This document shows positions 10,101 through 63,519 of a stretch of DNA of 64,000 nt, piece after piece. The number at the start of each line of letters is the position of its first letter. Position 1 is the first letter of the stretch. The notes under the pieces were generated by a model. It saw only the letters and a program-made list of their open reading frames with translations. It had not been told where the DNA came from and searched no databases. A program made the translations under genes and the position numbers. Location of the stretch: positions 15,561,201 to 15,625,200 of the forward strand of contig NC_092670.1 in the NCBI RefSeq assembly GCF_964355755.1, in the 5' to 3' direction. Origin of the DNA: Antedon mediterranea (taxonomy: Eukaryota > Echinodermata > Crinoidea > Comatulida > Antedonidae).

Positions 10101-13100
10101 AAAGGGAGACCCCACTATACGAAAAGGGAGACCCCACTATACGAAAAGGGAGACCCTAATATACGAAAAGGGAGACCTAAATATACGAAAAGGGAGACCC
10201 AATTATACGAAAGGGAGACCCAAATATACAAAATGGGAGGCCCAAATATACGAAAAGGGAGACCCACTATAAGAAAAGGGAGACCCACTATAAGAAAAGG
10301 GAGACCCCACTATACGAAAAGAGAGACCACACTATACGAAAAGGGAGACCCTAATAATATACGAAAAGGGAGACCCAAATATAGGTCTCCATTTTCGTAT
10401 TGGGTCTCGTTTCAGGTCTCTGGTCTCGGATCTCTAGTTTCGAAACACCCGTTAAAAACAATTTCATTTTTACAGAAACCGGTCCTATATATTTGTCTAC
10501 TTTTGGATGGGGGGGGGGGGTAGTTGACCGGGGGTAGTTGACCGGGGGGTAGTTGTCCGGGGGTTTGTTATCCTAAGGGGGTAGTTGTCCTAAGGGGGTA
10601 GTTGTCCGGGGGTAGTTGTCCTAAGGGGGTAGTTGTCCGGGTGGTAAACATCCGGGGGGTAACTGTCTAGGGGGTAGGTGTCCTAGAACCGAAAAGGGAG
10701 ACCCCCTATACGAAAAGGGAGACCCCACTATACGAAAAGGGAGACCCTAATATACGAAAAGGGAGACCTAAATATACGAAAAGGGAGACCCAATTATACG
10801 AAAGGGAGACCCAAATATACAAAATGGGAGACCCAAATATACGAAAAGGGAGACCCACTATAAGAAAAGGGAGACCCACTATAAGAAAAGGGAGACCCCA
10901 CTATACGAAAAGAGAGACCACACTATACGAAAAGGGAGACCCTAATAATATACGAAAAGGGAGACCCAAATATAGGTCTCCCTTTTCGTATTGGGTCTCG
11001 TTTCAGGTCTCTGGTCTCGGATCTCTAGTTTCGAAACACCCGTTAAAAACAGATGATTTCATTTTTACAGAAACCGGTCCTATATATTTGTCTACTTTTG
11101 GATGGGGGGGGGGGTAGTTGACCGGGGGGTAGTTGACCGGGGGGTAGTTGACCGGGGGGTAGTTATCCTAAGGGGGTAGTTGTCCTAAGGGGGTGGTTGT
11201 CCGGGGGGTAGTTGTCCGGGGGGTTGTTATCCTAAGGGGGTAGTTGTCCTAAGGGGGTAGTTGTCCGGGGGGTAGTTGTCCGGGGGGTAGTTGTCCTAAG
11301 GGGGTAGTTGTCCGGGTGGTAAACATCCGGGGGGTAACTGTCTAGGGGGTAGGTGTCCTAGAACCATATAGCCTATGTGCAGGCCTGTACTACACTGTGA
11401 TTGGACCATTCTGAGGGTCCAGCTAAGAAATACCCAGACAACCCCCCATCATAACAACCCAATGTACAGTACTACTGTACTCATCTTAAAACTCATCTCA
11501 AACCAACTCTAAACAAATCATTCACAAAGTAGTTGAAAAATATATATAAAGTAAGTATGATAATTTATTTAATATCCTGTAGGGCTGTTTGCCAGCATGC
11601 TTTATAAGCACTATAGCTGCAGATTGGTATCCATGGTTGGTGGATTGATAATTGGAATTGGCTTTATTCTAACGTCTGTTGCCAGAAACGTCTTCCATTT
11701 ATTTTTGTTCGTAGACATATTAGCGGGTACAGTATTCATTTATTTTTACCCTTAAATATCTTTCAAGAGAGTAATCCCTCCAGTTTGACCCATGTACTGT
11801 ACACCTTAACACACCCTGGAGGAGGGACGGGGTTACCCTGGGGTAGGGGCATTGGTTACCCTGATTTATTTTTTTCAGTCCCTGTCATTATGAACCGAAA
11901 ATTGAACGCCATGGCAGCTCAACACAAAAGGACCCTAGGGAAAAATGTTCACTTTGTTAGAACAAATTATGTTGTTGAAAAACATCAAAAAGGTTAACAT
12001 ATCAAATATATGGCAATAAATTACACACTTTACACTCAGATATTCAAAATGCATTAGGATTATGTGACATGTTTTTGGAAAGTTTCCATTTTTTTTTTTA
12101 GTTGACAGTATTTGTTTGAAATGTACTATTGTGATTTGTTTGTTCTAGGTATTGGTATTGGCCTCGCTGGTAACCCCATGGTAGTGGTAATAGCCCACTA
12201 TTTTGACAAGCAGTATGCGACCGCGAACGGTTTTGCGATGGCGGGAGTTGATGTCGGGCTAGTAGTTCTGCCACCTTTGACAGATTATATATCAAGCGCA
12301 TACGGTTGGAGAGGCGCACTTCTAATACTTGGTGCTGCCACTTTGAACGTTACTGCGATGGGAGCACTATTCCGTCCTATTCCTAAAATCAAAGAAGGGA
12401 TTCCTGATCAAGAATATGATGAATTAAATCCAGTTTCAGCAGATCTTCCTGATGATGCTGAAAATAATGATACAATCACAAAACATACGGAAGATCAAAC
12501 AGATGTTATATTAGATGATTCTGATCAAATAACAAAGGCACCCGTAACAGAAGCGGTGTTAGAAAATGAAAATTTTTTAAATTCAAGAACAACACCAAAT
12601 ATGGTAGCTTTTGACACGGAAGAGTTGGACACTGTATCTCGCATAAAAATTCCCGTTCTTCAAAAAGTTGTAAATACATTAGATCTACACATTTTTAAAA
12701 TACCAAAATTTTTAGTACTAATGCCTGTAACCATGATCGTGGCTTCAGCCAATTCCGCCATCTTGGCTCATATTGTAGCTAGGGCCATCTCCGATGGGAT
12801 TTCCCCGTTCTTTGGATCTTTACTCCTTTCTGGAATCGGTGCTACTAGTATGATAGCACGATGCACACATGGGTTTATTATTGACAAAGAAATAATGTCA
12901 GCGTCGCGGTTGTACACCATAGCTCTAATTCTTGGTGGTGTGTTCACATTTCTTTCCTTGTTTTGTAATAGCTTCCCAACCTTTTTGACATACACTTTGT
13001 TTTATGGAGCTGTGAGTGGGATATTTCAGTGTGCTTCTATACCTATAGTAAAGAGTACTGTGCCCTCCCGGATGCTGGGCGGAGCCGTTGCATGGTTGTT

Positions 13101-13707
13101 TATTTTTAGAGGACTTGGTGGATTCTTAGGTGGACTTATTGCAGGTAAGAGTAAACTGATTATTTATTAGCTTCTAGCATTGTACAATTGAAAGTAATTC
13201 ATATTTTTATAATGTATTGAATTTGTTATTTATTGTTTTTTAACCCTATTAGGGTCCCTTTAATAGGGCTGTTCCCTGAATAGTGGGTGGCCATTGGTTT
13301 CATTTCATATATTTTGCCTCAAATCATTTTGAGGCCAACCACCATTGCAAGAACCCTGCATGGACAAAAAATAAGAAACAAAAACCAACCAGACAGAGAA
13401 ATTGTCCATTAATTGAGGTGTCTAAATAGGCGTGTCCCAAATGTTATATATAACTGTGTATATGCTATATTTACTAAATACTAATAATGATTTTTTGATG
13501 TTTTATGATTGTTCTATTAATTTTATAGGTACATTGTTCGATGCTACAGGCAACTATACCTGTTCGTTTATAGTTATTGCTGGATCTTTTATGACGTCTG
13601 CCTTATTGATGATCTTATTCTCGTACTCGAAGGGACGTAAGAAGCGTCGTGATTCATTAATGCTAAGTCCGGTTGAACTTCACGTACGGGAATGTACAGG
13701 TCTTTGA
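7153..13707 (+). CDS. SLC16/monocarboxylate-transporter-like protein 1 (4 exons, 513 aa)
   Basis: Plasma-membrane major-facilitator protein of the monocarboxylate transporter (SLC16) family; the substrate cannot be read from sequence. Exons are 7153-7375, 11583-11726, 12149-13144 and 13529-13707, every intron in phase 1. The start is the first ATG in frame; a GTG 30 bp upstream is not a plausible start. The SLC16 hallmark around TM5 is clear: HYFDKQYATANGFAMAG followed by YGWRGALLILG and GALFRP. Residues 1-18 form a basic N-terminus. Lys40 aligns with the TM1 lysine of mammalian MCT1, and Arg360 in ATSMIARCTHG aligns with its TM8 arginine. The usual DGGWGWVV motif before TM1 is replaced by PPPKYWKYVV. 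A long acidic cytosolic loop (about 200-285) separates the two six-helix halves. The C-terminus is short and basic (SKGRKKRRDSLM). Intron 1 (4.2 kb) is crowded with repeats. The tandem paralogue lies at 18024-21283. Confidence 0.9.
7862..7915 (-). mobile_element. LINE/SINE 3' tail remnant (MCT-1 intron 1)
   Basis: On the minus strand, GCGCTATATAAATCGAACG runs into a (GATT)n tail, a common ending of L2/CR1-like retroelements. Confidence 0.5.
8291..8478. mobile_element. Small inverted-repeat element (MCT-1 intron 1)
   Basis: The left end has CAATTTACACAGATGAGTGG and the right end the inverted CTTGTCTGTGTAAATTG. About 188 bp, non-coding. A 50-bp direct duplication (8471-8570) overlaps its right end. 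Confidence 0.65.
8471..8570. repeat. 50-bp direct duplication
   Basis: Two copies of a 50-bp segment containing ATACATTGGGATGTAGATAA, spaced exactly 50 bp with a single visible mismatch, so the duplication is recent. Confidence 0.9.
8780..8978 (-). mobile_element. hAT-type MITE, family B copy 2, with 8-bp target duplication
   Basis: Ends CAGTTGCGTAATG and CATTATGCCACTG are inverted copies. The element is flanked by a perfect 8-bp duplication TTTATAAG (8772-8779 and 8979-8986), the hallmark of hAT transposition. The interior matches 3287-3468 in reverse orientation. Confidence 0.9.
9077..11365. repeat. Inverted composite satellite array (MCT-1 intron 1)
   Basis: The left arm (9077-9345) is an array of GGACAACTACCCCCC-type units. 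The right arms (10508-10685 and 11104-11365) are the reverse complement, GGGGGGTAGTTGTCC. Between them is a different minisatellite of about 21 bp (CGAAAAGGGAGACCC...) at 10050-10385, bounded by inverted arms at 9999-10078 and 10375-10459. A segment of about 590 bp including minisatellite, right arm and C/G-rich array is then duplicated in tandem (offset 591 bp) at about 10690-11365. Open frames across it are repeat artefacts. Confidence 0.85.
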
Positions 13708-18023: not shown

Positions 18024-21000
18024 ATGAAGAAGTCTCACAGAAACGTTCCAAGTTATTGGAAATTCGCAGTTGTGTTCGGATCTCACGTGGGCCATCTTCT
18101 CAGCATCGGATTGCTCAGAAGTTTAGGTGTCTTTTTTGTTCGCTTCCAAGGCGAGTTTAAAGCGAGTTCAGGATTGATGGGAACGATCACAACACTGCCT
18201 TATCCATTTCTGTGTATAGCAGGTAAACACGTTATCATATCGGAAATTTAGATTGAGTGCAGTACATAATAATAATTATATTTATTAAATGCCGTGAATG
18301 ACGAAGGTGAGAGTTGGAGTAGGCCTACGTGGAAGTAAAGGGAGTCTGAGTGAAAAGTAGGTGATTCGTGGTGGCGGAACGATGAAACGGTTATAAGACC
18401 GTAGGCCACTACAGTCATTTTATATTAGGTATTCTATTATTAAGTATACACATCTTAAAAACTATTCACTTTCCTACACTATAGTCAGTTGCTTAACAGA
18501 TATATTTGGGAAATATGCTAAATTTCAGATTTCTCGTAGCTTTCAATATTTCGTCTAGAGGTAGGCCTATAGATTTTGTTCTCCGTTCTCGAAGACTGAT
18601 CGTACCTCTAAAAACAATGTGTTTGACATTGACAATGTTGTCTGAATCATACCATCATTGCTTACTACATTATTGATAACAATTTGTTCTCACTATCTGT
18701 TTCAGGACTAGCTGCGTCTATGTTATGTAAACGATATTCACACAGGAGTGTTTCCATGATTGGTGGGGTATTTATGACTGTTGGCTTGTTTCTAACATCC
18801 TTTTCCACCAACATCTTTCAACTGATTTTATGTATTGATGTTTTGACAGGTAGGTTTAATTTATATTTCATATGCCATGTGCCCAAATAAATTAAAACCG
18901 CGAATTCAGTTTTATAAAATTCTTGTCTTGTTTGTTTCATGACATTCGTGTTTTCGATAAATCTCTTTAGGGTTTTTGTAATGTTACGTCGCACTTTGCA
19001 ATACCTATCGAACTCCAAAACAAAATTGCCACACTGGCAGAGTGCAACGATTATTATAAGTGCGACGTAACAAACCGTACCGAATACAGTGTCATTCAGA
19101 AAAAAAGATACGATCTAATGCAGCCGATTCTTGTTCGTTATCATGTCTACCAACAATATTAACACACAGTCTGTAGTGGCCTATAGTTGATAACACTTGT
19201 GAAAAAGAGTGTCTGGTCAGGAAGCTATCCCATGGGATGAGGATTGCTGTCAGAAGATGCAATATGCCTACTGCATGCTGTGTTTTGTCGTAGACATGGA
19301 ACCGTATGTGCATCACCATAGTGTAATTATGTCAGTCAACGGGTAAGGAGCTTTTGATTTACGACGACCGACCAACCTGGATCGAAAATAGTTCACGTTC
19401 CAATCCCAATTAACATGACGTATGTAGCTTGGTCGTCGGTCGTCAAATCGAAAGCTCCCTATCCTTTCGTCACGTCCAGTTAGTGTGCGTTGCTTATTTT
19501 ATTTAAGGTGAAGATATTGTTACTTCAATTTGTGTCTGAATTGCAATTATTTTCGTAGGAATTGGTATTGGACTCGCAGTTAATCCTTGTCTTCTGGTGG
19601 TTGCACAATACTTTGATGAGAAGTATGCCACTGCCAATGGTCTTGCTATGGCTGGAGCAGACACTGGCATGTTTATTCTGCCGCCATTAGCTGAATATCT
19701 TTCTGTACGGTATGGATGGAGAGGCGCCATGGTTATTCTAAGCGGTATTTGCATGCATGTTATAGCAATGGGTGCATTATTCCGTCCCAATACCAAAACG
19801 AAAAACATTTCTAACAACATAGGCCTACAAGAACATAATCTGGAAGATATCAACACCGAAAATAAGATAAAAAATGACAACGATATATATAATACTAATG
19901 ATCGTTATGTTGACAATAGCTTAAATAATGGTAGCCCAACAGAATCTTGTACTGTGTATGATGCTGTTCCTTCTGAGGATGCCAAACAAGATGAGACTAT
20001 AGATTCTGTCACACAACAAAAGACGCATGTTTCAAATATACGAAGGTTTCTCAATTCTATGGATCTTCCAATATTTTCAATATCAAAATATCGTTTTCTT
20101 TTGCCGATCACCTTAATAGCTGGAGGAGCCAACACCGGGATGGTGTCGCATATTGTCGCAAGAGGTATCTCTGAAGGCGTCGATCCGTTTGCAGCCACAT
20201 TCCTGCTATCAGGTGTCGGTGTCACAAGCATGATAAGTCGAGCCACTCATGGCATGATCATCGATCGGGGGATAGTGTCAGCCGTGCGTCTCTACACACT
20301 GGCACTTGCCATCATTGGCATCTTGACGTTGCTTTCTTTGCTTTGTAATAGCTTCGCTACATTTCTCATCTACACTGTGTGCTTTGGGATGGTAAGCGGC
20401 ATATGCCAGTGTGCGTTTGTTCCGATCGTGAGGGCCAGTGTTCCTTCACGTATGCTGGGCGGGGCTATTGCATGGTTGAATCTCTTCAGAGGATTTGGTT
20501 CCTTATTAGGTGGATATATATCAGGTAAGAAACTCATAATAATATAGAGAGCTTTTGTAACGACCTATGACCGGACGGATGGATGTAATATCCACATTAT
20601 TACCGTAAGTTTCTTTGGCCAAGGCCGACCCTTTGGTTGACTGTGTCCAGATGATGACCTTTGGATGACTGTGTCCAGATGATGACCTTTGGATTTACAG
20701 AGCTAACGACCAACTGGACAATAATAACGGTATTAATGTATATACGTTATATTCCTCCAAATCGCGCGGCAGATTGAATGCTCTTAACTGTTTGGTGACC
20801 AGGCCATTTTAAGTGTGCACAGTGTATGGGGTGCAGTACACAAGTAATCCAACCCCAAAGAACTTTTGTGCAAATGCGCAATCGTGTTCAGAGTTATCAA
20901 GTTGTTTGCCATTTGGACGCAACAAGGACGCAAGCGCACCGCATTAATGTTAAATATTCAATAAATAAATCATTAAATTAAAGTATATTTTTGACCAATC

Positions 21001-36325: not shown

Positions 36326-36632
36326 ATTATTGGATCTCTCTGCTGAACATACGTACATTCTGTACAGTACTGTATGTACCTCAATTATTGGATCTCTCTG
36401 CTGAACATACGTACATTCTGTACAGTACATTCTGTACAGTACATTCTGTACAGTACATTCTGTACAGTACATTCTGTACAGTACATTCTGTACAGTACAT
36501 TCTGTACAGTACATTCTGTACAGTACATTCTGTACAGTACATTCTGTACAGTACATTCTGTACAGTACATTCTGTACAGTACATTCTGTACAGTACATTC
36601 TGTACAGTACTGTATGTACCTCAATTATTGGA
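36326..36632. repeat. 14-bp satellite array (GTACATTCTGTACA)
   Basis: About 14 near-perfect copies of a 14-bp unit at 36406-36620, flanked on both sides by partial copies of a longer unit containing CTCAATTATTGGATC. The unit is partly palindromic (TGTACAGTACA), so long open frames on both strands are artefacts. Confidence 0.95.
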
Positions 36633-53670: not shown

Positions 53671-53870
53671 TAAAGATCTTTTTAACGGCAGTTTTTTAAC
53701 AGACTATTGATTGTGCTATGTTAGTTATACTGCAGTTAGTATTATTTGTATCTTCTGAAAAGATAAATATAGGCTATAAAAAAAATGAAAAAGTAACAAT
53801 TTAAAGTTTTTGCTACCTCCCACCACCACCGTATGCACCGTTATTTCTGATCAATTATTTATAAAAGATA

Positions 53871-54221
53871 AGTAATATTTACATGTAATACAGATTAGTA
53901 ATATTTACATGTAATACAGATTAGTAATATTTACATGTAATACAGATTAGTAATATTTACATGTAATACAGATTAGTAATATTTACATGTAATACAGATT
54001 AGTAATATTTACATGTAATACAGATTAGTAATATTTACATGTAATACAGATTAGTAATATTTACATGTAATACAGATTAGTAATATTTACATGTAATACA
54101 GATTAGTAATATTTACATGTAATACAGATTAGTAATATTTACATGTAATACAGATTAGTAATATTTACATGTAATACAGATTAGTAATATTTCCATGTAA
54201 TACAGATTAGTAATATTTACA
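53871..54221. repeat. 26-bp tandem repeat, about 13.5 copies
   Basis: Near-perfect direct repeats containing AGTAATATTTACATGTAATA. There are no spacers, so this is a minisatellite and not a CRISPR. Confidence 0.95.
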
Positions 54222-54229
54222 TACAAAAC

Positions 54230-56875: not shown

Positions 56876-59800
56876 ATGGAAGGATATCACCATTGGTTGC
56901 GACATTCGAACGGGCAAGTAAATGTTTGTCAAATCACCCTCTTTCTTATATGGATTACCATCATTTGTTTATGGACATTCAGGCGGTTGTTTAATCGGAA
57001 ACCTGTACAGAAAACGACCGACGATATTGAAACGGGTAAAATCAAATATCAACGAAAATTACCGAATGAGCAGTGTTTGGAACAGTGGAGCGCAGACGTA
57101 GAATCTATCATAGATGATAATAAACCAACAACATCGTTAGAAGAAAAAATTGAAAAACAATTTTCCAAATTTAAACCACCACCGACGTTTGATGACTTTC
57201 TGTTTTACTGCATTGTTTTTGGTGCGTTTATGATGTTCTTTTACCTGTGTTATTGCAAACGTGTTTTTCCGGCTGGAGAACGTGAATATTCCAGAGATTT
57301 GTTTGTTTTTCTTTGTCTTATTTTGTTTGGTGTTGGATGTTATTTTACAGTTCAGGTGAACGAGGATAAGATTCTAAACAGGTAGGTAAATATGAATTTG
57401 GTTGGGGTAGGCCTATCACTGTATCACTTTTGTGACAGCACGCTCAGATTAATATGCATCTGTGTACAGATACAGGTGACAATCCATGTTTTTTTGGTAG
57501 CTAACCATTAACTGCAACCACCAGGGGATCTGTTTTACCGTCACTTCATTAAAATGAAACAGTTTCGCAGACCATATATTATTTTCGACACACTGCACGC
57601 GCGTAACCAAGTTGGGGCTTGTTTTAAGCAACAACATAATTCTTTTAATTGAATGGAAGTTGCTTATTACTTCTTTTTATTTAATTGCGGTGCATACCAG
57701 TTTTTTTTTATTGCGTTTCACCACTCACTTATTCTTCATTCTCTCCACCAGAGATCAAACTGAAGAATGGAAAGGATGGATGCAAGTGATGTTTGTGTGG
57801 TACCATTACTATGATGCAGTGGAAATATACAATATAATCAGAGTATTTATTGCTTGCTACATTTGGATGACGGGATTCGGTAATTATTTGACGTAATGTA
57901 GACGTTAAAGGCGGAGGACCTAAAGCTTGATTGCCACTAGGACGCAACGCAATGGCGTAACGCAACGCAAAGTAATTTGACGAATCTCAAGCGATGGATT
58001 ATTTGAACAGTCATGTGAAGTTGCGTTCTTTCAAGTACCTTCTGTTTTGCGTCTAGAGTGGGAACCAAGCTTTAAAGGCCCATTTACACTAGGACGATAA
58101 CGATCGACGATAAATAGACAAGTATGCATTTTTCATACATAAAACAAAAGAAATATAAAAACCTTTCATTCTAGAACTATAGAATAACCATATATGCTTT
58201 CTTTGATGAAAATTATATTTTTACACATCCAATCAAATGTCATGATTAATAAGAGCAAAAATATCGTGACAATACAACGATGTTATGGTTATTATTTATC
58301 ATGACATCATTTGATGGAAATTTGAAAATTAATATTTGTATCAAAGACAGCATAAATGATTATCCTAAAGTTCTAGAACGAAATCCTTTCTAATTTAATT
58401 TTTTTTATGTAAAAAAAAATGCATGCTTATATATTTGTCGTCGATCGTTATAGTCCTAGTGTAAATGGATCTCCTTTAACCTTGTGGATGACGTCGCGTT
58501 AGAGACATCAGAGTCGTAATATTGAATACAGTACTGTATTATGATAAATTATGATGGTTCGGTGATAGTGATATTTATGAGCTTTAATATTATGAAACAG
58601 CTAAATAAAGGGATCAGACGATAGGTGCAGGTTTCCCACTTAGACGCAACAGAAACGACGTAGCTTGGCAAATCACAAGCAACTCAGATGATCCATCGCG
58701 CCGTAATTGGTCAAATTGCATGCGAGGGTGCGCGCGCTTATGTCCTGGCGTTGCGTGTCTGGGTGGGCACCAAGTTTGATGGCGAAGATGATGTTAGTGA
58801 TGATGATGTCGGTGACGTTTGAGCATGTTATGTGGGGCATCAGTGGATTTTGGCAAAGTCAGTGGAAGGAAGGATTATCGATTTATAAATCTGTCTTTAG
58901 TTACAAGGAGTCTACTTGGACAAGGAGTTACGACAGAACGAGAACGGATGGGGACCCTCCAAAGAAATTGCATTTTATTTGTCAGGCATTTGTATGATTT
59001 ATTTATTTTTTTTTTTTTTAATGCGCCTTGAGCACTCTTGAGTGGTATGTGCGCTATAAAAATCCTTTTATTATTATTATTATTACTTACACACCCATGA
59101 TCAGTTTTAATATAATAACGCCTTTGTAATATTCGTTTTCATAGGTAACTTTTCTTTCTTCTGGATTCGTCAAGACTTTTCCATATGGCGTATATGCAAA
59201 ATGATTTTTCGTTTAAACTTTCTCGTTGTTTTTGTTGCCGTGGTTACAAATAACCAATACATGCTGTATTACATATGTGCCATGCACACGTACTGGTTCA
59301 TCACCGTTTACGTGTTCATGCGTGTATTATCGTCATGGAACACGCAACCAAAACTTATGGCTATTAAATTTGCCGCTTATTTCATTTGTAATACGGTGAT
59401 TTTTGATTTGCCATACGTTGCTGACGTCGTTTTTACGCCGTTTTGGCCAATTTTCTCGATGAACAACAGTCTTTACGAGTGGAAGTATCGTGCTAAGCTA
59501 GACCATTATGCCGCGTTGGTAGGGATGATATCTGCTTACAATTACCCTAATTACGAACGACTTATGAAATACCTGGATCAGAAGCATATTGATAAACGAG
59601 ATAGGATAATGTTGATGGGTGTAAAAATAATGTCTTTAGGTGTTTTAGGCATCCTTTTAGGGGTGTGGTGCTACCTTTTTATGTCGATGGAACGGGACGA
59701 ATACAATCAGTACCACCCGTACATATCATGGTTTCCTATCCTATCATATATTTTCGTGCGCAATTTGTTTCCCTTCTTTCGCACTCATCACATCGGGTTA

Positions 59801-60103
59801 TTTACTTGGCTTGGAAAAATCACATTGGAAACGTACATCACTCAGTTTCATATATACCTGGCGCATGGTAAACGTATCATTTTCATCCTCATCGATGGAT
59901 ATCCACTGATAAATGTCATTTTTTCAACTGCGGTCTACCTCATCGTGTCGTTGTACCTTCTTAGATTAACAACAGAATTCAGTGCTTTTCTTTTACCAAA
60001 AGACATGAAAAAGGTTTTGTATCATTTTATTGGTATTACTTTAATTGTTTGTATTCATTTTTGTTTTGCGTTTCTGCTTCGTGATATAATAGGATTAATG
60101 TAA
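56876..60103 (+). CDS. Cas1p-type O-acetyltransferase 1, lacking SGNH domain (3 exons, 530 aa)
   Basis: Multi-membrane acyltransferase, presumably in the Golgi, moving acetyl groups onto sugars; the substrate is unknown. Exons are 56876-57381, 57752-57879 and 59145-60103, phases matching. Start MEGYHHW is also the start of the neighbouring paralogue. TM1 is about residues 18-37; a hydrophilic linker (38-110) precedes a run of membrane segments. Family-conserved stretches are [25 protein letters not shown] (169-180), [23 protein letters not shown] (207-213), [11 protein letters not shown] (250-260, with His259) and [12 protein letters not shown]. Animal CASD1 (sialic acid O-acetyltransferase) carries a luminal SGNH domain before these helices; here nothing of it is present. 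The architecture and about 530-residue length match plant RWA (reduced wall acetylation) proteins. An unseen SGNH partner encoded elsewhere is possible. Confidence 0.88.
57923..58072. mobile_element. TA-flanked inverted-repeat family C copy (intron 2 of acetyltransferase 1)
   Basis: AAGCTTGATTGCCACTAGGA and GTGGGAACCAAGCTT are inverted ends, with TA at 57921-57922 and 58073-58074. The left arm repeats CGCAACGCAA. Directly followed by another element. Confidence 0.8.
58076..58475. mobile_element. TTAA-flanked, fully palindromic MITE, 400 bp (intron 2 of acetyltransferase 1)
   Basis: Starts AGGCCCATTTACACTAGGAC and ends with its inverse (GTCCTAGTGTAAATGG, then CCT), with TTAA at 58072-58075 and 58476-58479. 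Further pairs (CGATCGACGA/TCGTCGATCG; TTCTAGAACT/AGTTCTAGAA) show that the whole element folds on itself. Confidence 0.85.
58626..58777. mobile_element. Inverted-repeat family C copy (diverged)
   Basis: Left GGTTTCCCACTTAGACGCAA and right TTGCGTGTCTGGGTGGGCACC are inverted ends; core GCAAATCACAAGC and TAATTGGTCAAATTGC. The open frame 58707-58997 across it is not a gene. Confidence 0.7.
59010..59092 (+). mobile_element. L2/SINE-type 3' tail (intron 2 of acetyltransferase 1)
   Basis: GCGCCTTGAGCACTCTTGAG, then GTGCGCTATAAAAATCC and a (TTA)n tail, the usual 3' end of L2-like elements and their SINEs. Confidence 0.7.
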
Positions 60104-60221
60104 GCTTTTTACCCGTAATGACGGCGCGCTATCCGATTGGTTCTGCTCACAGCAACGCGTAGGTCGCGCGACAAAACTTCTGACCAATCATGTTACGAGT
60201 TTTCTAGCAATTGATCAAATC

Positions 60222-60227
60222 AATAAA
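60222..60227 (+). terminator. Polyadenylation signal, acetyltransferase 1
   Basis: AATAAA 119 bp past the stop codon; a second one lies at 60327. Confidence 0.45.
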
Positions 60228-60639
60228 ACACGCTAACGCAGAGACTCACAAAAGTGCGCACAAGAAGCAAGAGAGAAAAGGACGAATGTCTTTTATTTTG
60301 GAGTAGGTTGCATCACATGTACACTAAATAAAGTAATGCAAAATAGGTATCTCAAATATGAAAAATAAAATCTAGGTAGGTAGCCTATCGTTTGCCCATT
60401 ATGCTAGGCCCATGCGTAATTATTTTTTCTGCATTATGAATCTCAAATATAACTAGGCCTATTGTATTCAAAACTCACATGAAATACATCCGTAATTCAA
60501 GCAATGATTTGTGTTTGTGCTTTATTTTAAATATAAACAATCTATGTATAAATTAATTACTGGATATTGGATATTAATGAGGAGACGTAAAAGAAAAAGA
60601 TAGAGGGCACTCGACTCGACTCACGGCCAGCAACAAATT

Positions 60640-60751
60640 ACACGTTGTTTGTGTTTACGACGTGACGTACGCACCTGTTGTTGATTGATGAGTGTGTCGG
60701 TGGTGTGCCGGTTGACAGAACGGAAAGACAGTTTGTTAATGTTAGTTATGT
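60640..60751 (+). promoter_or_regulatory. Candidate promoter and non-coding first exon of acetyltransferase 2
   Basis: CpG-containing stretch ending in a GTAAGT donor at 60752; TAGGCCTA-type palindromes cluster in the following intron (60840-61090). It would splice to the CGACAG acceptor at about 61489. Confidence 0.35.
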
Positions 60752-61500
60752 GTAAGTACAAAAGTTTAATATACTGACATTTTATAAGATTTTCTGTTTG
60801 ATTTAAGAGGATAAAAGCTACTCTATTTACTGAACTAACTTAGGCCTAATATTAAACTTAGTAGGCCTATATCCTACACTACAGTATAGGCAGTTTAGCC
60901 ATTTCTACTGACTTGGGCCTTCTTGGCTAGTCCCGTGGCTAGTACACAGTAGTAAGGCCCAGGCCTAGCCACCCAGCCAGATATTTAGTGTGTCTAGTGT
61001 ACAGTAGAGCGGATCACCCCCTTTCATTTCATTTCTACCACCAGCAAGGCCTTGAGTGTAGGTTAGGCCTAGCTAGCCTACTACTAACTAGACCGAACGA
61101 TGTAGCTGAGCCTAATATTATTAATAACGATGCTGCCGAAGCCGTGAGTTCGAAAAACTTTTTTTTCCCACATTTTTTTATTTTATTTTTTCTTTTGCTC
61201 ACTATCGACCACCATGGCATCGTCTTTTTCTTACCATTGCTTAGACTAGTTAGATAGAGTAGAGGAATGGGTTTTCTTTAGGTTTCCAGGGCCCAGATAA
61301 AAATGCAAGGGACGATCGGGCCAAACACACAAGATTATTGAGACCGCTAAAAGTACCTGTCCTGATTGTCTGTGTGATCTCATTTGTTCCCACAGGCTTG
61401 TGAGGTCTGCAATCAGCATGCCTACTTTAGACTGAGCCATTTGAGAGTAAACTTATTTTGAACATTTTTTTCAAACACTGTATCGACAGACTAGCAAAGA

Positions 61501-62123
61501 ATGGAAGCATATCACCATTGGTTTCACCACTCATCTTCCATTGGAAAGCGTGATGTCCCTGTCAATTACACGAGTGTATTTTCTACAAACGATGGACAAG
61601 CAAATATTTGCCAATTGACACTTTTTCTCATATGGGTCACTATTATCTCTTTCTGGACCTTCAGACGATTTTTTCATCGTAAGCCCTTACCAGAAACTTC
61701 GGCTTATGACAATAAACCTGTTGAAGATGGCGTCGTTCAGAAAACGGAAGATGAAATTACACATCAACGAAAATTACAGAATGGACATTTGAAAAAACCG
61801 CTTTTAACAAATGAAGAAACCGCAAATATAGACGAATCGGCAGAAGTATTAGAAGATAAATCACCAACCCAACCAGAAGAAACTACCAATACAAAAAGTC
61901 AATTTTCAAAAATTAAACCACCCCCTACATTTGATACATTTCTGTTTTACTGCATTGTTTTCGGTGCGTTTATGGTGTTCTTCTATCTTTGCGATTCTAA
62001 ACATGTCTTTCCTGCCGGAGAACGTGAATATTCCAGAGATTTGTTTGTTTTCCTTTGTTTCATCTTGTTTGGTGTTGGATGCTATTTTACAGTTCAAGTG
62101 AACGAGGATAAGATTCTAAACAG
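61501..62123 (+). CDS. Cas1p-type O-acetyltransferase 2, first coding exon (partial gene, 207 codons seen)
   Basis: Tandem paralogue of the gene at 56876-60103, cut by the window end. The exon runs from ATG (MEAYHHWFHHSSS) to a GTAGGT donor in the same phase and at the same protein position as copy 1. An in-frame TAG sits 9 bp before the ATG (61492-61494), inside the presumed exon, so no upstream SGNH domain can be fused through this frame. The N-terminal part is longer than in copy 1 and has an NYT glycosylation sequon (about residues 23-25) before the first membrane segment. The hydrophilic linker differs strongly. From KPPPTFD to KILNR the two copies are almost identical, including [13 protein letters not shown]. 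The counterparts of exons 2 and 3 were not found in 62124-64000, so they lie beyond the window or are missing. Confidence 0.85.
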
Positions 62124-62741: not shown

Positions 62742-63519
62742 TTGTCAAGGTTATTGCTGTTAATTATGTGGACTTATTATATAAATAATTTAAATAAGTT
62801 TCGCAAACTCACTTTTACCAGCAAAATAATACATAAAAAGAACCTGTACAATTATACACAAAAAAATGATCTACAGTGGGACACCCCTATTAACTCACTC
62901 ACTTCTCCCTTGCCATCTAAACGACCTTTTCGCTCCTAATAATACCGTTCATAAATATTATACTAGAACAAGAAATAACATATATATCCCTAACCATAAC
63001 ACCAATTATTTTCAACATAGCATTAGATATTCTGGACCTCTATTGTTTAACAATTTACCCCCCTCAATTTCCTGTGCTGCCAACCGCTATTCATTTAATA
63101 ATAACATAAAAAATTACCTTTTGTCTCATTACTGATCGATCTGTTTGATATGGTCGTTTTTTCCATGTTCCGTGACTTGCTATCTTTATTATTCAATTGT
63201 CATCATATTCGCTATATGCCATGCAGCTGTACTTTTTTCTGTTCTTTTTTTATTTTTTATTCCAACTTTTATCTACTGGTTTTATATATATTTTGTATTT
63301 CTTTATTGTTTAATTAATTTATTTTCTTTATTTATATATTTTTTTTTTTTTTTCTTCTCTTATTTAAATATTTTGTAAAGGCAATCCCGTCACAAGATTG
63401 TAATCTTTTTGGGATTTGCCTTCGTCCATTTTCTTGTTTTATCACTTGCCATTTTGTTTTTGTTACTTTTGTCTTTTGGACGTGAATAAATGTTCCTTGA
63501 ATTGAATTGAATTGAAATT
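62742..63519 (+). mobile_element. LINE 3' end (in presumed intron 1 of acetyltransferase 2)
   Basis: The frame ending at 63135 encodes a LINE ORF2 C-terminus: HKYYTRTRNNIYIP, then IRYSGPLLFNNLPPSI and a basic terminal segment. A T-rich 3'UTR and a (TTGAA)n tail at 63497-63519 follow. The upstream part is in another frame, so the copy is broken and 5'-truncated. Confidence 0.8.

Follow-up and report, generated by a model that had tools for sequence, protein, structure and literature searches.

A tandem array of SGNH-free, RWA-like Cas1p genes beside a normal CASD1 gene in the crinoid Antedon mediterranea

Reviews assign glycan O-acetylation to a single fused protein in animals and fungi, such as CASD1 (N-acetylneuraminate 9-O-acetyltransferase), and to separate proteins in plants, among them RWA (REDUCED WALL ACETYLATION). 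Here, we describe a group of genes for Cas1p-type transmembrane acetyltransferase domains (Pfam Cas1_AcylT, PF07779) that begins in a 64,000-nucleotide stretch of the genome of the crinoid Antedon mediterranea (contig NC_092670.1, hereafter C1; G000:C1:15561201-15625200), the whole of which we refer to as the window. The main result is that an array of such genes lacking any SGNH domain and resembling plant RWA genes is a real feature of this sialic-acid-rich animal, where it exists beside a normal CASD1 gene. From their sequences, we consider it fairly likely (probability of about 0.6) that the four encoded proteins, T1 to T4, are stand-alone Cas1p-type transmembrane O-acetyltransferases with RWA architecture that form a lineage distinct from the local CASD1 and act on luminal glycans. 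If this is true, one animal combines a fused CASD1 with an RWA-type array, and the plant-type component would not be confined to plants and algae. The array would also offer a natural setting in which to ask if the transmembrane domain is an enzyme in its own right or a supplier of acetyl groups, a question that concerns RWA and CASD1 alike. The part of the literature on RWA-type genes in animals that we covered contains no statement either way and describes no such array, though uncharacterised database entries may exist.

An array of four intact genes

A genome-wide search for Cas1_AcylT domains, which the initial annotation of the window had suggested as a check, gave matches at only 2 places, the array at 15.618-15.641 Mb of C1 and the CASD1 gene on a second contig (C2) near 16.51 Mb. 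With an array protein as query, the whole genome yielded exactly 4 matches to exon 3, every one of them in the C1 cluster. This cluster consists of 4 intact plus-strand genes in a head-to-tail tandem arrangement (G000:C1:15618076-15640787), with 1.4 kb between T1 and T2 and 2.1 kb in each of the two other gaps. Each has three exons with GT-AG splice sites and encodes 530-572 amino acids, and both introns interrupt all copies at the same positions (in LN-R|DQ and GFG|NF), followed by an uninterrupted exon 3 of around 319 codons. What had initially been annotated as a tandem pair at 56876-62123 is therefore truly a tandem arrangement of Cas1p genes but comprises only the first two of four, and the interval contains all of T1 while its end marks the end of exon 1 of T2 and not of that gene.

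T1 (56876-57381, 57752-57879, and 59145-60103, plus strand; 530 amino acids) lies completely within the window. Its exon 1 (56876..57381) encodes a short N-terminus, the first membrane segment, a hydrophilic linker, and the first two helices of the transmembrane region CTMR, and ends at R169, the equivalent of CASD1 residue R428, whose codon is split by the intron (splice site CAG|GTAGGT). Exon 2 (57752..57879) carries K176 (57771) and the histidine H187 (57804), equivalent to K435 and the catalytic H446. The remaining Cas1_AcylT domain and the stop codon are found in exon 3 (59145..60103), which matches PF07779 on its own with E=2.3e-55 and in which R227 (59189), R234 (59210), and Q445 (59843) align with R489, R496, and Q714 of CASD1. 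After an intergenic stretch of 1.4 kb (60104..61500) follows T2 (568 amino acids), of which only exon 1 (61501-62123) is inside the window. Counting window coordinates on past the window's end, its exons 2 and 3 are at 67131-67258 and 67773-68728 (C1:15628331-15628458 and C1:15628973-15629928). T3 spans 70786-71384, 73462-73589, and 74137-75092 (C1:15631986-15636292; 560 amino acids) and T4 spans 77223-77860, 78167-78297, and 78638-79587 (C1:15638423-15640787; 572 amino acids), all on the plus strand. As annotated from the start, T1 (ATG at 56876) and T2 (ATG at 61501) begin with ME[GA]YHHW, i.e., MEGYHHW and MEAYHHW, respectively; T3 and T4 begin with MEAHYHW. An in-frame stop codon is found no more than 3 codons upstream of the ATG in T2 and T4, and the upstream frame of T1 and T3 is open without any further methionine.

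Two minor observations concern the same region. A 26-base tandem repeat (window 53866-54222; 13.7 copies, 99% matches) is located around 2.6 kb upstream of T1, and intron 1 of T2 contains a short open reading frame (ORF; window 62830-63135, plus strand) that by eye resembles the end of a protein of retrotransposons without long terminal repeats (non-LTR retrotransposons).

Pairwise identity among the four proteins is 77-90% in the core and 79-91% in the CTMR, and the reading frames of all four genes are complete. Because the ratio of nonsynonymous to synonymous substitution rates (dN/dS) among the copies is 0.17-0.28 (from NG86 values), we read T1 to T4 as constrained genes and not as pseudogenes. 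A 4-base insertion in T4 relative to T3 (C1:15640763-15640787) shifts the frame at the C-terminus and replaces the last few residues, as might be seen in degenerate or non-enzymatic paralogs, but with all copies under constraint and six active-site residues kept in each of them (see below), we regard such a fate of the array as very improbable.

Relation to CASD1 and plant RWA proteins

All array proteins match PF07779 across the whole domain, with alignments that start at position 46-49 of the 482-position profile and end at 480 and with E-values around 1e-90 (T1: E=1.3e-89, 302 bits, profile positions 46-480; T2: 2.2e-90). Hydropathy analysis bore out the previously annotated order of a membrane segment, a hydrophilic linker, and the Cas1p helices: a single segment located within residues 17-69 of T1 to T4 precedes the linker and the multi-helix part, and around 10 hydrophobic segments were counted. 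The predicted structure of exon 3 alone reached a mean predicted local distance difference test score (pLDDT) of 40, too low for a comparison with the 10-helix acyltransferase fold of the TmAT superfamily, and nothing close was found among solved structures, where the sole match covered 20 residues (E=0.49).

The annotated absence of an SGNH domain at the front of these proteins held up as well, since no GDS motif was found in any of the four and searches of 80.8 kb around the array were negative. There, the 6 SGNH-side exons of the local CASD1 produced merely chance-level matches (E 0.35 or worse) while detecting their own locus at E-values of around 1e-18 or better as a positive control, and 19 NXPE domains of this genome had no match at an E-value of 0.1. 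No coding sequence for an SGNH or PC-esterase domain was found in the intergenic stretch between T1 and T2, either. The Pfam PC-Esterase profile PF13839 had no match but also none in the controls, so that this result is uninformative. A distant unseen 5' exon upstream of the array genes seems unlikely. With no luminal SGNH domain encoded within or upstream of any copy, the array proteins do not have the fused composition of CASD1; their combination of a CTMR, an N-terminal membrane segment, and no SGNH domain is that of RWA proteins, which are defined as SGNH-free and CTMR-only (PMC6110886, PMC13043746).

The separate CASD1 gene is a minus-strand gene of C2 (near 16.51 Mb) whose many exons align in turn with human CASD1; among them are SGNH exons with GDSRMRQL (C2:16528476), GAATW, and DGLHFP (C2:16517773). 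Its introns, which precede PTVLNR, follow GAS, interrupt VCQ|VMF, and occur at several positions further on, have no position in the CTMR in common with those of the array. Because this normal, SGNH-bearing CASD1 is present on C2, no CTMR intron is shared, and core identity is only 36-37%, T1 to T4 do not appear to be truncated CASD1 copies. That they might be recent truncated CASD1 pseudogenes, one of the outcomes that would have overturned the initial annotation, can be rejected given their intact frames, the dN/dS values, the lack of common introns, and the normal CASD1 elsewhere.

For our comparisons with human CASD1 and with Arabidopsis RWA2, both sequences were written out by us and not taken from database entries. 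The numbering of human CASD1 fits that of all six residues given in PMC13043746. The RWA2 sequence, in contrast, is unverified and was written out after the window had already been read, a caveat that applies to all RWA2 values given here; a text search for the peptide motif yielded no printed RWA sequence. Local and human CASD1 are 58% identical in the CTMR parts. Core identity of T1 to T4 is 42-46% to RWA2 and 31-34% to human CASD1, and RWA2 itself is 35% identical to the local and the human CASD1 each, so that CASD1 is not the closest relative of the array proteins in this comparison. Among 141 columns fixed in T1 to T4 and in CASD1, 34 unite T1 to T4 with RWA2, 14 unite T1 to T4 with CASD1, and 8 unite RWA2 with CASD1. 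The array proteins and RWA2 also share the motif YHYxxAxExYNxIRVFIAxYVWMTGFGNFS and similar Pfam bit scores (302-305 for T1, T2, and RWA2; 571 for the local CASD1). A seven-row tree without outgroup and with long branches separates T1 to T4 and RWA2 from the two CASD1s with 100/100 support. We grade the affinity of T1 to T4 to RWA as probable and not as proven because RWA2 is unverified, the tree lacks an outgroup, and its long branches call for caution. The initial description of these genes as built like those of plant RWA proteins is thus borne out in architecture and, with the reservation about the unverified RWA2, also in sequence.

The same data bear on a scenario in which CASD1 copies lost their SGNH domain during animal evolution and subsequently diverged quickly. 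Array and CASD1 belong to the same Pfam family with the same CTMR in one genome, and an unrooted tree leaves room for a fast CASD1 stem; however, the absence of any common intron position, the 34 versus 14 sites, and the closer similarity of T1 to T4 to RWA2 than to either CASD1 make this history distinctly unlikely in our view.

Compared to known systems, the array thus resembles plant RWA in having only a Cas1_AcylT domain behind an N-terminal membrane segment and linker, without SGNH, and in several copies, but it differs in belonging to an animal without plant walls that retains a fused CASD1 and in having a merely presumed acceptor. RWA proteins of plants are located in the Golgi, are needed for polysaccharide O-acetylation, and have partner transferases. 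With CASD1, it shares the transmembrane acetyltransferase domain and all six tested active-site residues but not the luminal SGNH domain, the CTMR introns, or more than the 36-37% identity given above. Fungal Cas1p of Cryptococcus, set beside the array by description and not by sequence, has the multi-helix domain but, unlike the array, an N-terminal PC-esterase domain (PMC2824669). Bacterial AT3 proteins and HGSNAT of the TmAT superfamily share the proposed chemistry and fold class with Cas1_AcylT (PMC12423673) but are distant in sequence. NXPE proteins, which are expanded in this genome, lack the helices and are not homologous to the array genes but could be their partners.

Proposed function and possible partners

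CASD1 residues R428, K435, H446, R489, R496, and Q714 are needed for transmembrane acetyl transfer, and the CASD1 transmembrane region acetylates without the SGNH domain (PMC13043746). The equivalents of these residues (R169, K176, H187, R227, R234, and Q445 in T1) are identical in T1, T2, T3, and T4 in six out of six cases, and the simplest reading is therefore that of a stand-alone enzyme that would transfer acetyl from cytosolic acetyl-CoA to a luminal acceptor. Judging from what is known of the family, the array proteins would be located in the Golgi membrane, where cytosolic acetyl-CoA would enter a tunnel in the membrane whose lining includes the basic equivalents of R428, K435, R489, and R496. 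The H446-equivalent histidine, aided by the equivalent of Q714, would then hand the acetyl group to a hydroxyl of a luminal glycan. Sialic acid, either linked to cytidine monophosphate (CMP) or glycan-bound, is probably the acceptor because GT29 sialyltransferases form an unusually large family in this genome with around 150 exon matches (exons and not genes being counted). These matches are spread over many contigs, with dense clusters at C9:6.93-7.21 Mb, C7:20.77-20.89 Mb, and C1:25.4-25.5 Mb. Several points weigh against this reading: localisation, activity, and acceptor of the array proteins are inferred, the RWA2 and human CASD1 sequences are not database entries and RWA2 is unverified, and the seven-row tree has the weaknesses named above.

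The array proteins might instead supply acetyl groups to separate transferases of the NXPE family. NXPE_C has 25 matches genome-wide, and each of the 19 that were retrieved is a full ORF containing the histidine as well as a motif of the GDSTxxQW type, so that the genome encodes at least 19 full-length stand-alone candidates, one of them on C1 around 200 kb from the array. Human NXPE1 acetylates CMP-Neu5Ac via its GDS serine (PMC12216134), and RWA has been proposed as supplier to TBL/AXY9 in plants (PMC6110886). However, the recombinant NXPE1 ectodomain is active with soluble acetyl-CoA alone, and luminal acetyl-CoA could here be provided by SLC33A1-like genes, since SLC33A1-type acetyl-CoA transporters have one match on C3 and a second, weaker one at C9:8341152-8341910. 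Furthermore, vertebrates have NXPE but, to our knowledge, no RWA-type genes, and the aspartate of the DxxH motif is missing in most NXPE ORFs of A. mediterranea (exact DxxH in only 3/19). Because the CTMR of CASD1 functions without its SGNH domain (PMC13043746), there is no need for a separate partner. A system split between RWA and NXPE is thus possible but not required, and we consider it rather doubtful; the initial proposal of split acetylation in this lineage was overstated also in that the fused CASD1 is kept. Similarly doubtful is a picture of two parallel machineries in which, next to the fused CASD1, four RWA-type membrane proteins would pass acetyl groups in a plant-like split arrangement to the expanded NXPE set, whose members would generate distinct acetylation patterns on an unusually rich sialoglycome. 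NXPE_C ORFs form a tandem cluster at C3:8975969-9012752, where the equal scores of several copies point to duplication in the very recent past.

Origin of the array and other features of the window

The array is not a contamination because it contains introns, has a host-like GC content at third codon positions (GC3; 0.37-0.42, like CASD1 and NXPE of the same genome), and sits on a 41 Mb contig. None of these features dates its arrival, and the array could descend from an ancient eukaryotic paralog that some animals retained or could have been gained laterally. The latter possibility, that an RWA-type gene was acquired from an alga or another eukaryote and then duplicated in tandem, would be compatible with the proposed stand-alone enzymes and agrees with the closeness to the plant protein in the unverified RWA2 sequence. 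There is also a reported precedent, in which a protist, the trypanosome Trypanosoma cruzi marinkellei, received an RWA-type gene from a photosynthetic organism (PMC3507753). Nevertheless, the two introns, host-like GC3, and chromosome-scale contig speak against a lateral gain, which we consider unlikely. Relatives of the array genes were not found by protein scans and a DNA pattern scan of viral contigs or by a scan of prokaryote contigs. Four bacterial contigs with an EEWKGWMQ-type DNA pattern were rejected as chance matches.

Elsewhere in the window, two large plus-strand ORFs (12106-13167 and 19540-20544) match MFS transporters and are probably a tandem pair. A short minus-strand ORF (1470-1886) resembles, again by eye only, the end of a non-LTR retrotransposon protein. 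At 36411-36610, the palindromic-looking 14-base unit GTACATTCTGTACA is repeated 14 times with zero mismatches.

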